Source: Terribacillus halophilus
Lineage (GTDB): Bacteria; Bacillota; Bacilli; Bacillales; Amphibacillaceae
Length of the DNA stretch: 64,000 bases
Assembly (NCBI RefSeq): GCF_900162685.1
Contig: NZ_LT727827.1
Location: forward strand, 413,971 to 477,970
Direction: 5' to 3'
Positions 51,691-55,292 of the stretch are shown here, in pieces (the first letter of the stretch is position 1; every line of letters begins with the position of its first letter). The notes beneath the pieces were generated by a model, which made no database searches, was not told where the DNA came from, and worked only from the letters and a program-made list of their open reading frames with translations. The position numbers were made by a program, and so were the translations under genes.

Positions 51691-52548
51691 TTATGCTCGT
51701 TCCAGCGGCAGCGAGCAGCAGCGGAATGACCCGCCGGATTTTATGATTTCCGAGAAGTTCACTTCTACAACTGTGATACCTTCGTTTCGCAGCGCTTCAT
51801 TTACTCGCTTGTTGGAAGGCAGACTTAACAATTTACCAGGTGCAAAAGAAAGAACATTCGTCCCCATGTAAAACTGGTCTTCCTCCGATATCTCGATGGT
51901 TTTGTACAGCTGACGGAAACGTTCCAAATCTTTCTGTTCAAAAGCATCCGGATAAAGTATCGCCAAGTCCTCCCGTACCAGATTAAATACGCAATCTAAG
52001 TGCAGAATATCTTCACGAATTTTTACAGGTATAATCTCATATTCCGGAAGCAGTTTTTGCACCTGCTGAACAGCTTTCTGTTCTGTTCGTTTGCTGAGCC
52101 CAATCCATACACGCTTTCCGTCTACTACCACATCGCCGCCTTCAATCGTTCCATGGGTAATGTCTTTGTATGTAAGCTCCTGATTCTCAAGCCACTCACG
52201 CAATATTTTTGTTTCTCCCTTACGAATCTCATCTTCCATATTCGACGTAAATAACGTATCTCCTATACAAAAACCAATATCACGTGTGTAAACTTGTTCA
52301 TTAAACGGTTCATGAGCCGGTACAGACATAACATCCACCCCATGATTCCGAAGTGCAGTGACAAAATCTGTATGCTGCGCCATTGCTAGTTCCCGGTCAA
52401 TGTTATGGTTCAAATAATGCTTTTGCGTTTCGTTAATAACCTTTCTAATTTCCATATATGCTGGCGGACAGACAACAACATGCTTCAGCTGTCCGAATTC
52501 TGACTGACACTTTGTTTGCGGTTTTTTCTCTTCCTGCATCTTGGTCAT
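51691..52548 (-). CDS. Amidinotransferase/dimethylarginine dimethylaminohydrolase-family protein (YkgA-like)
   Basis: 285 residues of the guanidino-modifying superfamily. The fold markers are RDIGFCIGDTLF, EGGDVVVDGKRVWIGLS, catalytic His in DILHLDCVFN and a double Cys GGSFRCCSLPL near the C-terminus; the second Cys is in the nucleophile position. It resembles B. subtilis YkgA. The physiological substrate is unknown; arginine, dimethylarginine and agmatine-like compounds are options. GGAGGG lies 8 nt before the first ATG. Confidence 0.85.
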   Translation of the reverse strand: MTKMQEEKKPQTKCQSEFGQLKHVVVCPPAYMEIRKVINETQKHYLNHNIDRELAMAQHTDFVTALRNHGVDVMSVPAHEPFNEQVYTRDIGFCIGDTLFTSNMEDEIRKGETKILREWLENQELTYKDITHGTIEGGDVVVDGKRVWIGLSKRTEQKAVQQVQKLLPEYEIIPVKIREDILHLDCVFNLVREDLAILYPDAFEQKDLERFRQLYKTIEISEEDQFYMGTNVLSFAPGKLLSLPSNKRVNEALRNEGITVVEVNFSEIIKSGGSFRCCSLPLERA

Positions 52549-52645: not shown

Positions 52646-52676
52646 CTACCTGTAGAAAGTGAAGGAGGAGAGCGAA

Positions 52677-53099
52677 GTGGAACAAGCAGAAGTCAAAAAA
52701 CATGTGGAACAAATTCTGGATAAACAGAAGATCGGAACACTTGCCACCGTCCAAGATGGCAAACCTTATAGCCGATACATGGCCTTTTTTAATGAAGGAT
52801 TCACATTATATTGCGCGACAAGCGGAAGCTCCCATAAAGTAGATGATATTGAGAGCAACCATAACGTCCATATCTTATTGGGCTACAATGGCGACGGTGT
52901 TGGTGATGAGTTTGTCGAAATCGAAGCCGACGCCAAAGTAAGCGAATCCCCGGAATTGAAACAGCAGCTGTGGAAAGACAGCTTTAAGGCATGGCTAGAT
53001 GGTCCGGACGATCCTGATTATGTTGTCTTGGAAATCAAACCAGATAAAATCTATCTAAAAAACATTAATAAAAGCGACGTTTATACAGTCGATCTTTAA
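52677..53099 (+). CDS. General stress protein 26-like pyridoxamine-phosphate-oxidase-fold protein
   Basis: 140 residues from the GTG at 52677. A GTG six codons upstream is followed by the ribosome site GGAGGAG itself, so it cannot be the start. KIGTLATVQDGKPYSRYMAF, TSGSSHKVDDIESN and ADGKVSESPE-like sections give the split-barrel flavin fold (FMN or F420). B. subtilis YdaG is the relative, with the same length. Role in stress is known only by regulation. A sigB-type promoter precedes it. Confidence 0.88.
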   Translation: MEQAEVKKHVEQILDKQKIGTLATVQDGKPYSRYMAFFNEGFTLYCATSGSSHKVDDIESNHNVHILLGYNGDGVGDEFVEIEADAKVSESPELKQQLWKDSFKAWLDGPDDPDYVVLEIKPDKIYLKNINKSDVYTVDL

Positions 53100-53101
53100 A
53101 C

Positions 53102-53135
53102 AAAAAAGCAGAACTGCTTATGGTTCTGCTTTTTT
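53102..53135. terminator. Bidirectional terminator holding the STAS stop codon
   Basis: AAAAAAGCAGAAC (53102-53114) pairs with GTTCTGCTTTTTT (53123-53135). The STAS gene's stop (53118-53120) lies in the loop, and its last codons form one arm. Confidence 0.88.
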
Positions 53136-53876
53136 TACATAAATGGAGATTGCCTGTTGCAAACTGGCCATTGCGTCAGCTTGCAACGTACCTTTTGATC
53201 CAAGTCCTTGAACCTGCGATGGTGACAGCCCAACAATCACTGTTTTCGTTCCCATCAGCTGAATCGCTTCAAACAGCTGTCCGAGCTTCTCTTTTCCATT
53301 CATCGTTATCTTGCCGACACCATGAAAATCGAAAAATACTTGCTCATATTCCTCTTCATCTATTCTCGATAGAATATTCGCTTCAATTACCTGCAGCTTA
53401 TCTGCTTGTAAATCACCGAACAAAGGAACCAGACCCGCTTCCTCATAAAGTGGAATGAACGGACCGCTAAGTTTATGGATACGATTGATCGCATCCTCCA
53501 GCTCTTCTTTCTTTTCCAGTAATTCAAAGTCTGTCTCTGACAGCCTGGACCGAAGTTTCATTAAATCGCTAGCAAGCTGGTCAATCTCTTTCGTTTTCTC
53601 TACACAAATTATATGTGCTTCGTCCGCTTCCCATCGCACAGAGATCTCGAACACAGCCAAAGGATCATGCTTTGTTTTCATATTTAGTTCGAATTGCATC
53701 TCAGACAAATGCGGCTGTATATACTGGCTGACTTTCTGCCGGTTCTCTTCATCAACCAAACTGCTAAAATCATCTCCAATTAAGAAGATACTGCTGGCGG
53801 CATGTGAATAATCAAGTATCTTCCAATCTGAGCTGATGAAGAAATAAGGCAAAGGTAAGAATTTACCGGACGCCAT
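53118..53876 (-). CDS. RsbR-like protein: PAS-like domain, coiled coil, STAS
   Basis: 252 residues from the ATG at 53876 (GGAGGAA 9 nt before). Residues 1-105 look PAS-like (LPYFFISSDWKILDYSHAAS). A heptad coiled coil follows (LASDLMKLRSRLSETDFELL), then a STAS domain from about 130 to the end (VFFDFHGVGKITMNGKEKL, GTKTVIVGLSPSQVQGLG). The order matches the RsbR stressosome proteins. The positions of the two phosphorylated Thr of RsbRA appear here as His (DFHGVG) and Gly (VQGLG), so it is probably not phosphorylated, as in YtvA. It follows the cobalamin-binding gene (14-nt overlap). Confidence 0.78.
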   Translation of the reverse strand: MASGKFLPLPYFFISSDWKILDYSHAASSIFLIGDDFSSLVDEENRQKVSQYIQPHLSEMQFELNMKTKHDPLAVFEISVRWEADEAHIICVEKTKEIDQLASDLMKLRSRLSETDFELLEKKEELEDAINRIHKLSGPFIPLYEEAGLVPLFGDLQADKLQVIEANILSRIDEEEYEQVFFDFHGVGKITMNGKEKLGQLFEAIQLMGTKTVIVGLSPSQVQGLGSKGTLQADAMASLQQAISIYVKKAEP

Positions 53877-54510
53877 CTGCCTGTTCCTCCGCCAATTCAT
53901 TTAGCCACCCTGCCACTTGGTCTAAATCGTAAATTACTTGCGTCTGTCTGCCGCAATAGGGCCTGATATCATGCATTGAAACCACTCGGCCTCCAACCAT
54001 AATCTTTGGCTTCCAAGGTAATTGCTCAAAAGCAGCAATGTATTCCTTCAGAGCAGGAATACGATATGGAATTGCAGCAGATAAACCGATTACTTTTGGC
54101 CGCCACTCCTCTGCACTGCTTAAAGCATGCGCTAAGGGCAGGTTAGGGCCAAGATGCCGAACTTGCCAATGCTGTTCTTCAAACAGAGCTGCTACCATCT
54201 TGGAACCAATAACATGCTGCTCCTCTTCCAAACAAAGGAACATCGCTTTATCTTCGGATTGTTTGTTTATCCGTTTAAATGGAAATATATACTGCGCCAG
54301 CGCAAAGTCACATACACTTGTTGCTAAGTGCTCGTCCGCTACTGTGATTTCATTACGCAGCCATTTCTCTCCAATATCATACATCGCCGGTGTTATGATT
54401 TCCTTGTACACACGGATACTTGGTCTTGGATCATCTGCTAAAAGGCTGTACGCCTGCCGCTCATCACCAGCAAGCAACGCTGCCGCAAAATGCTGCCAAG
54501 CTTCTGTCAT
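53863..54510 (-). CDS. Cobalamin-binding protein with CarH-like W-X9-EH motif
   Basis: 215 residues from the ATG at 54510. The N-terminal helix bundle (about 1-80) carries W50 followed nine residues later by E60-H61 (KWLRNEITVADEH), the signature of the light-sensing CarH/LitR cobalamin domains. The Rossmann domain has the base-off motif with Glu in place of Asp: EQHVIG (E97, H99, G102), then SAAIP and VGGRVV. There is no MerR DNA-binding domain, so it cannot act as CarH does. It is cotranscribed with the RsbR-like protein. GAGGGTGA stands before the ATG. No enzyme domain. Confidence 0.82.
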   Translation of the reverse strand: MTEAWQHFAAALLAGDERQAYSLLADDPRPSIRVYKEIITPAMYDIGEKWLRNEITVADEHLATSVCDFALAQYIFPFKRINKQSEDKAMFLCLEEEQHVIGSKMVAALFEEQHWQVRHLGPNLPLAHALSSAEEWRPKVIGLSAAIPYRIPALKEYIAAFEQLPWKPKIMVGGRVVSMHDIRPYCGRQTQVIYDLDQVAGWLNELAEEQADGVR

Positions 54511-54522
54511 CACGTATCACCC

Positions 54523-54900
54523 TCAGTTGTCTTCGTCCTTGTTTTTTTCTGCATGCAATACTTGAATTCCTTCCTCCAAACATGCTTTGAAAAAGGAATA
54601 CTTCTTCTTTTCCATAGATGCTTCCAAAAGTGGTATCAGCCGCTCATAATTGTCTATAATAATCTTTTCATTCATACCGCGGGCAGAAAGCAGTTCAGAA
54701 AGCCACATCGTATAATCTTTAAATAGCTGCGAATCATCCGCCTCATAAGCAGTCTGCAAATAATTTAAGTGATGCTGATTATCCTCGCGCGTTCTTATTT
54801 TTCCGTTTTCCCCGTAACGTTCATATAAAGATGGATACGCGTCAAAGATGTCTTCCACGATTTTATCAAGCAATTCTTCTGCTCGGATTGTTGTGTTCAT
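54523..54900 (-). CDS. Helical hypothetical protein in the cobalamin/STAS operon
   Basis: 125 residues, strongly helical and acidic, no membrane segment. DIFDAYPSLYERYGENGKIR and LQTAYEADDSQLFKDYTMWL, then LSELLSARGMNEKIIIDNYE, resemble helical modules that I recall from actinobacterial cobalamin-domain proteins; this is a loose memory. The ATG overlaps the HmoA-like stop by 4 nt and has GAGGTGG upstream. The cobalamin-binding gene starts 12 nt later. It is probably a partner of that protein. Function unknown. Confidence 0.65.
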   Translation of the reverse strand: MNTTIRAEELLDKIVEDIFDAYPSLYERYGENGKIRTREDNQHHLNYLQTAYEADDSQLFKDYTMWLSELLSARGMNEKIIIDNYERLIPLLEASMEKKKYSFFKACLEEGIQVLHAEKNKDEDN

Positions 54901-55202
54901 TGCGTCACCACCTCAAACATTTTTACCGTAGGCCGGATAGCCGCCAGTTCTTGATCCGGGTATTTTTTCTCCCGATCGTGAATGCGCTTGAAATCATCCC
55001 CGCTAATCCAATCTATATAACTCTGCTTGTCTTCCCAAGTAATCTCCACGGTCAATTCTCCCGGCTTCTTCTGATTGTGAAGCAGCCGGAACTGCTGGAA
55101 ACCCGGAGCCTGATCCACTAGTTTCGATCTGTTTCGATAAATAGCAATCACTTCCTCTGCTTTTTCAGCAGGAACATCGAAAATCGAATGTACGATATAC
55201 AT
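54897..55202 (-). CDS. Antibiotic-biosynthesis-monooxygenase-fold protein, HmoA-like
   Basis: 101 residues. Dimeric ferredoxin-like fold (MYIVHSIFDVPAEKAEEVIA, ELTVEITWEDKQSYIDW). IsdG-type haem monooxygenases need an Asn, a Trp and a His ten residues later; here Trp and His have that spacing (DWISGDDFKRIHD) and an Asn in RNRSKL. It may bind or degrade haem. First gene of the operon after a consensus sigA promoter. GGGGGG precedes the ATG. Confidence 0.7.
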   Translation of the reverse strand: MYIVHSIFDVPAEKAEEVIAIYRNRSKLVDQAPGFQQFRLLHNQKKPGELTVEITWEDKQSYIDWISGDDFKRIHDREKKYPDQELAAIRPTVKMFEVVTQ

Positions 55203-55263
55203 GGAACCCCCCTATATTGCTGTATTCCGCGATTAATAATAGGTTATCATAATCGGATTTGCG

Positions 55264-55292
55264 ATTATAGCATTTAAGGTTTGCACCATCAA
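55264..55292 (-). promoter_or_regulatory. sigA promoter of the HmoA/cobalamin/STAS operon
   Basis: On the minus strand TTGATG (55287-55292), 17 nt, TATAAT (55264-55269). The -10 is perfect. It abuts the terminator of the MFS gene. Confidence 0.75.

Follow-up and report, generated by a model that had tools for sequence, protein, structure and literature searches.

Gene organization of the locus

A four-gene operon, with coding capacity for a putative light sensor and its output, was analysed in a 64,000-nucleotide stretch of the Terribacillus halophilus genome (contig NZ_LT727827.1, positions 413,971 to 477,970 of the forward strand), here called the window. The open reading frame coordinates place all four genes on the minus strand, at the positions given by a first-pass annotation made from the letters of the window. 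The promoter element and the genes, in the order of transcription, are as follows:

55264..55272, minus strand: extended −10 element (TGCTATAAT) preceding the operon; conserved in four Terribacillus
54897..55202, minus strand: HmoA-like protein of an ABM-fold heme monooxygenase subfamily, putative bilin maker; 101 residues; Pfam ABM at 7.9e-14
54523..54900, minus strand: stand-alone photoglobin, putative bilin-binding subunit; 125 residues; assigned by profile matches and residues D40, W66 and T37
53863..54513, minus strand: CarH/photocobilin-type B12-binding module; 216 residues from GTG, 215 from ATG; both B12-binding Pfam domains
53118..53876, minus strand: STAS protein, putative YtvA/RsbR-like output, with a candidate PAS-like N-domain, a helical linker and STAS; 252 residues from ATG

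The genes overlap or lie close together, as the annotation had stated: the hmoA-like and globin genes share 4 nucleotides, a gap of 9 nucleotides separates the globin gene from the B12 gene, and the B12 and STAS genes overlap. The STAS open reading frame opens at 53900 (260 residues), and relatives start at the in-frame ATG at 53876, behind GGAGGAAC. The single consensus promoter that had been proposed was borne out in part. Its extended −10 (TGCTATAA) is conserved in four Terribacillus, but the −35 (55287-55292) is not, and a promoter scan returned 7 promoter-like sites compared with 7.4 in shuffled sequences. The host genome is 3.45 Mb in size. The nearest named relatives found were two strains of Terribacillus saccharophilus, in which the B12 protein is 81-82% identical and the flanking genes are the same.

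The 125-residue protein

The product of the second gene had been described as a helical protein, and it matched no Pfam family above the cut-off. When its sequence alone was compared with solved structures, the top two matches were both to records of one photocobilin, SasPcob, and covered its globin that binds biliverdin (E 0.015). With a globin profile of 13 rows, the SasPcob biliverdin domain was matched at 8.8e-6 and 9.0e-6, phycocyanin alpha at 4.7e-4 and AbPcob at 1e-3, and the first match other than photocobilins and phycocyanins appeared at 0.96. In Pfam scans of single members, 11 of 38 globins touched the Phycobilisome family, with a best E of only 0.0011, and the next families were touched by 2 each; some single globins matched unrelated helical families, two of them more strongly than Phycobilisome (6.1e-6 and 5.3e-5).

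The profile alignment sets D40 and W66 of the window globin opposite Asp270 and Trp296 of SasPcob, both stressed as biliverdin contacts (PMC10979010). Numbering in that paper equals the chain number plus 6, so that chain W55, E65, H66 and H102 correspond to Trp61, Glu71, His72 and His108. Conservation of these positions was counted over 61 loci, namely the 64 examined (one or a few per genus, four of them from Terribacillus) less L034, L035 and L036, which hold broken copies only. D40 is conserved in 60/61 loci and W66 in 61/61, the window included; the mean column identity of the globin as a whole is 40% (38 rows). The sole loss of D40, in L115, is found at a globin gene with no hmoA, B12 or STAS gene nearby, in a genome without a dedicated B12 protein.

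The position of phycocyanin's bilin-binding Cys in the C-x-R-D motif is taken by T37 in the profile alignments, and the CXRD chromophore Cys of phycobiliproteins is not present in the window globin. Counted over the 61 loci, Cys occupies this position 38 times, Thr 21 times and Ala twice, and the residue in Terribacillus is Thr. A fused globin-B12 protein of Azospirillum has C-V-E-D here, so a Cys at the bilin-attachment position is not confined to the bacilli. The Azospirillum brasilense fusions with the CxxD Cys lie on megaplasmids (L180 and L181:4938-6047), and the frame directly after one of them (L181:6066-7307) is histidine kinase-like by eye, with no features listed there.

By its sequence, the 125-residue protein is a stand-alone globin of the bilin-binding type, a photoglobin. 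Since it is a photoglobin, the sensor looks like a two-chromophore unit of the photocobilin type and not like B12 alone.

The B12-binding protein

The third gene product matched the Pfam domains B12-binding_2 (1.2e-11) and B12-binding (1.8e-13). Nothing besides these two was found above the cut-off, and no DNA-binding domain was seen, including the N-terminal MerR type, in agreement with the first-pass annotation. The motifs named there were likewise confirmed: W50-x9-E60-H61 is present (ATG numbering), the axial H99 lies in E-x-H-x-x-G with Glu replacing Asp, and G-x-x-W and G-x-x-x-P also occur. Among 46 aligned B12 rows (rows with fewer than 150 matched positions, such as those of L034, L035, L111 and L112, were left out), 8 of the 11 positions checked are invariant, including the W, E, H and axial His, and the other three are kept in 45, 44 and 39 rows. 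The set closely resembles the signature published for B12 domains that respond to light, given as GxxW, EH, GxxH and GxxxP (PMC11796333). The best solved relatives of the module were SasPcob (4e-16), the cobalamin-binding entry 8jbs (2.3e-15) and AbPcob (1e-9), followed by CarH-type entries at 2e-7 and weaker. The W-x9/10-EH and E/D-x-H motifs described for such modules (PMC10979010, PMC11796333) are both there. The protein is thus classed as a CarH/photocobilin-type module lacking a DNA-binding domain, with ligand binding predicted.

The HmoA-like protein and its possible role in bilin supply

The Pfam match of the first gene product agrees with its earlier description as HmoA-like. Among 159 genomes of the family, its subfamily scored 182.9-193.3 bits in 13, all of them globin carriers, and every copy adjoins a globin gene; the next scores were 57.6 bits for a 38-residue piece and then 43.6 or less. 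The association with the globin gave p = 6e-16 by Fisher's exact test, shared ancestry not being corrected for. Of the four remaining globin carriers in the family, G065 (L033) has no hmoA, and the loci of G003, G024 and G127 are decayed. Canonical heme oxygenase (PF01126) was detected in 0/159 family genomes, with 3/14 control genomes positive, and in 0/48 further globin carriers of the order, yet it was present in 4 of 5 same-class carriers of a globin-B12 fusion. The tie of the subfamily to the globin and this complementary absence of heme oxygenase make the HmoA-like enzyme the best candidate for the bilin maker.

The site of the subfamily is Ser-Trp-His, with S6 in 53/55 rows, W65 in 53/55 and H75 in 55/55, where the catalytic triad of IsdG is Asn-Trp-His (PMC5557675). 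The HmoA-like protein likely makes bilin from heme, although its product is uncertain because the catalytic Asn of IsdG is replaced by Ser. The first-pass annotation had suggested that the protein might act on tetrapyrroles; this is retained in a narrower form, the link being to the photoglobin specifically.

Distribution and gene order

The globin was found in 163 of 397 sampled genomes of the order (51 of 135 genera), and in 17 of the 159 family genomes, in three of these as decayed pieces. In a phylum sample, 15 of 398 genomes matched the globin, 12 of them outside the order. When the loci of these 12 were viewed in stretches of about 3.3 kb, 11 showed the globin N-terminal and the B12 module C-terminal in one protein of 352-375 residues, which is the same order as that of the two genes here; the twelfth had the globin only, in a 202-residue frame. 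One fusion locus (L151) has an hmoA-like gene just upstream. At the loci examined within the order, the window among them, separate genes encode the globin and the B12 module, which do not form the single polypeptide of a photocobilin. All 61 stand-alone globins fell on one side of a branch supported at 96/98 in a tree of few columns with unsettled bootstrap.

Gene sets were called from the sequence around each globin gene, which in most cases extended 4 to 6 kb to either side and for a few loci less. All four genes could be recognised at 37 of the 61 loci whose globin gene is of intact length, so the arrangement that the first-pass annotation had proposed to check for co-occurrence is not unique to one genome. 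The remaining loci comprised ten with hmoA and globin only, four with hmoA, globin, B12 and a histidine kinase, four with hmoA, globin and B12, three with globin, B12 and STAS without a called hmoA, and three with the globin only. A gene was split over two frames in L111 (B12; one of the 37), L112 (B12) and L126 (hmoA). Searches with tblastn at the six loci without a called hmoA gave a full-length match in L112, broken or partial matches in L127 and L119, and nothing better than chance in L033, L115 and L135. The L119 match (L119:2901-3242) is a chimeric frame with about the last third of the HmoA-like protein on an unrelated start; it adjoins a full-length globin, in a genome without a dedicated B12 protein.

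In each of the ten sampled genomes where hmoA and globin form a pair of their own, a dedicated B12 protein is encoded at another site (at least 182 bits). Beside these ten separate B12 genes, a full-length STAS partner was found in four cases, and a two-frame STAS together with a second, B12-kinase locus in one.

Within Terribacillus the B12 gene was found in 5 of 10 genomes. In G003, pieces of hmoA and globin (L036:4780-5120) remain at the same site, between an MFS and a PNPOx gene, and B12 and STAS are gone. These remnants at a syntenic site point to loss of the operon. In the window, the PNPOx-family gene past the operon end (52659-53099) is adjoined by a DDAH/arginine-deiminase-family gene (51691-52548), which is retained in the compared Terribacillus loci.

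The STAS protein and its output

The fourth protein had been annotated as PAS-coiled-coil-STAS in RsbR order. Its STAS part stands as YtvA/RsbR-like: the Pfam STAS match (4.8e-4) was just under the cut-off, and among solved structures the domain was nearest to YtvA (3e-18; 2mwg) and RsbR (1.7e-15). The NCBIfam YtvA model matched at 60 bits against a cut-off of 250. Listeria RsbR has two phospho-threonines, T175 and T209; in the columns aligned to them, Thr or Ser occurs in 3/40 and 2/40 rows, and owing to this rarity the protein would fit the YtvA type. The Rsbr_N globin domain was not found in it by Pfam scans, and the host genome's own RsbR has one.

The PAS part is not established by sequence. 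Pfam PAS was matched in 2 of 13 members (best E 0.014), the profile match to PAS was colinear but weak, and a poor structural model (predicted local distance difference test, pLDDT, 44) gave the order strand-strand-helices-three strands. A PAS fold nevertheless appears likely for this N-domain.

In four loci (L110, L113, L122 and L126) the B12-adjacent protein keeps the N-domain (4e-30 or better) and ends in a histidine kinase, with HATPase_c in 4/4 and HisKA in 4/4, one of the latter under the cut-off. In L178 the N-domain is joined to HATPase_c only, and a kinase was recognised by eye at the decayed L034 locus. STAS is therefore not the sole output of the B12/globin unit, a histidine kinase taking its place in some loci. 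The constancy of the N-domain while the outputs are exchanged suggests that it is the signal receiver. Short proteins (165-220 residues) that share only the N-domain with the STAS protein, and have a C-terminal part of their own, follow the B12 gene in L163, L167, L170, L171 and L172.

About 110 kb from the operon, the host genome has a single rsbRSTUVW-sigB-rsbX cluster (names partly by eye). It also holds two PAS-STAS proteins (L057:1086-1895 and L063:1095-1895; PAS and STAS by Pfam), which are of the LOV type by motif and YtvA-like. In total, 19 STAS matches were recorded in the host genome at E up to 1, and a 350-residue STAS protein lies at L062:5381-6433.

Interpretation

The operon probably encodes a photocobilin split into two polypeptides, along with a dedicated enzyme for bilin supply and an output to the general stress response. 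This reading rests on the occurrence of the same globin fused to the same B12 module in 11 of the 12 loci outside the order. The HmoA-like enzyme would open heme to a linear tetrapyrrole, which the photoglobin would bind; the SasPcob structure suggests that D40 would face the pyrrole rings and W66 one of the end rings. The globin would dock on the B12 protein of CarH type, the two being covalently joined in the fused versions, and the invariant residues suggest that adenosylcobalamin sits in the B12 protein between W50 and E60-H61, with a His below the cobalt. By analogy with photocobilins, green light through B12, or red light through the bilin, may break the Co-C bond and alter the assembly. 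The N-terminal domain of the STAS protein would read this change. Acting in the stressosome as an RsbR paralogue of the YtvA type that cannot be phosphorylated, the STAS protein would release RsbT and so activate sigB. In the histidine-kinase loci the same sensor would feed a phosphorelay. Ligand binding, the light response, complex formation, stressosome entry and the direction of the effect on sigB are what we infer from sequence.

Several observations weigh against this proposal. With the broader globin profile of 38 rows, phycocyanin came first (5.9e-4) and SasPcob dropped to 3.3e-3, and a single-sequence AlphaFold model of the globin was poor (pLDDT 62), its structural matches being no better than unrelated helical proteins. 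Terribacillus has Thr rather than Cys at the bilin-attachment position. The Ser6 of the HmoA-like protein in place of the catalytic Asn leaves activity as well as product uncertain, and in G008, one of the 13 family copies, a stop codon falls within the globin match. Among the seven distant fusion carriers, heme oxygenase was found in 0/7, and no hmoA-like gene in the short stretch seen. On the output side, five of the ten separate B12 genes are accompanied by the short N-domain proteins of 165 to 220 residues, with no recognised STAS. RsbT occurs in 149 of the 159 family genomes, which makes its co-occurrence with the operon uninformative.

The alternative that fares best, though still unlikely, concerns the output: the STAS protein may stand outside the stressosome and serve another pathway, as a free anti-anti-sigma or partner-switch protein that does not target sigB. 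The lack of a detected Rsbr_N domain, the mostly absent phospho-sites and the distance of about 110 kb from the rsb cluster would all suit such a role. However, the solved STAS proteins nearest to this one in sequence are YtvA and RsbR, and YtvA itself is without Rsbr_N and located away from the rsb cluster.

Less probable is a unit that senses tetrapyrrole or redox state instead of light, reading heme, bilin or cobalamin status or oxygen, with the stress response adjusting metabolism. All three ligands are tetrapyrroles and the host group is not photosynthetic, but the two LOV-STAS proteins of the genome (LOV by motif) make light a likely stressosome input in this host. Expression at low iron, as seen for many IsdG-type enzymes (PMC5557675), would also fit, whereas the B12 site is of the light type (GxxW, EH, GxxxP and axial His; PMC11796333), with W, E and H in all 46 rows. 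An equally improbable B12-only sensor, in which the B12 protein alone signals to STAS and the 125-residue protein is an adaptor lacking a chromophore, would accord with the complete B12 photoreceptor residues and with the AbDPcob globin, which can lose most of its biliverdin affinity and may keep another role (PMC10979010), but it is opposed by the retention of D40 and W66 in an otherwise divergent globin, by the travelling of the globin with a heme-oxygenase-like gene even where B12 lies elsewhere, and by the sole loss of D40 being in an orphan.

A wider version of the split-photocobilin proposal is possible but rather doubtful. It holds that a self-sufficient biliprotein system is widespread in Bacillales. 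A Ser-Trp-His enzyme of the ABM fold, instead of a heme oxygenase, would make the chromophore for a globin of the phycobiliprotein type, the Cys in 38/61 loci may bind bilin covalently without a lyase, and the globin would join a separate B12 protein in a split two-colour photoreceptor feeding the stressosome or a histidine kinase. If true, the general stress response would have red- and green-light input besides blue-light YtvA.

On the favoured reading, a photocobilin-type sensor would be placed in Bacillus relatives, in an operon with a defined class of output. The operon is a candidate for a light input to sigB at longer wavelengths. Activation of sigB by red light is reported for B. subtilis (PMC3019169). 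If the HmoA-like protein makes bilin, it would represent a second enzyme family in chromophore supply for photoreceptors. With Cys and Thr alternating at the site of phycobilin attachment, the natural globins lend themselves to comparing covalent and non-covalent binding of the bilin, and a small red/green module of two parts would be of use in optogenetics.

Comparison with known systems

The blue-light inputs of the stressosome are the LOV-STAS proteins YtvA and RsbL. The fourth protein shares with them the architecture of an RsbR paralogue and a STAS domain mostly lacking the phospho-threonines; there, a built-in LOV flavin domain reads light, whereas here separate B12 and bilin proteins would do so. 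The photoglobin family of Schneider et al. 2022 is reportedly a non-heme globin, predicted to form a light-sensing bundle and coupled to B12-binding and signalling domains, and the globin described here is similar in having B12-binding and signalling partners. With IsdG, MhuD and HmoA, the first protein shares the ABM fold and the conserved Trp and axial His, but the catalytic Asn is Ser in 53/55 rows and the gene is tied to a bilin globin.

The photocobilins SasPcob and AbDPcob pass their signal to an enzyme domain, also via protein contact, and STAS, SpoIIE and PP2C proteins have been named as possible SasPcob partners; the function of stand-alone photocobilins was considered unclear by their authors (Zhang et al. 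2024, PMC10979010). The B12 module is of the same type in both systems, and the globin has the same Asp and Trp positions as that of SasPcob. In contrast to the photocobilins, the operon has two genes, globin then B12, accompanied by an HmoA-like gene and an RsbR/YtvA-like partner, with no canonical heme oxygenase. The Cys found in 38/61 globins here is said in that paper to be absent from photocobilins.

The Myxococcales globin BBAG-2 also binds biliverdin and goes with a B12-binding protein and a classical heme oxygenase (PMC10151467, 2023). The resemblance thus lies in the set of bilin globin, B12-binding protein and heme-oxidising enzyme. The enzyme there is, however, a classical heme oxygenase, BBAG-2 is without the CXRD motif that BBAG-1/3 have, and no STAS output was mentioned in the text seen (PMC10151467). 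The combination of a split photocobilin with an HmoA-like gene and a YtvA-like STAS protein was not found in the literature searched, Schneider et al. 2022 not being covered. The parts are of known kinds, namely photocobilins, photoglobins and bilin globins with B12 proteins, and within that literature it is their combination that appears to be new.

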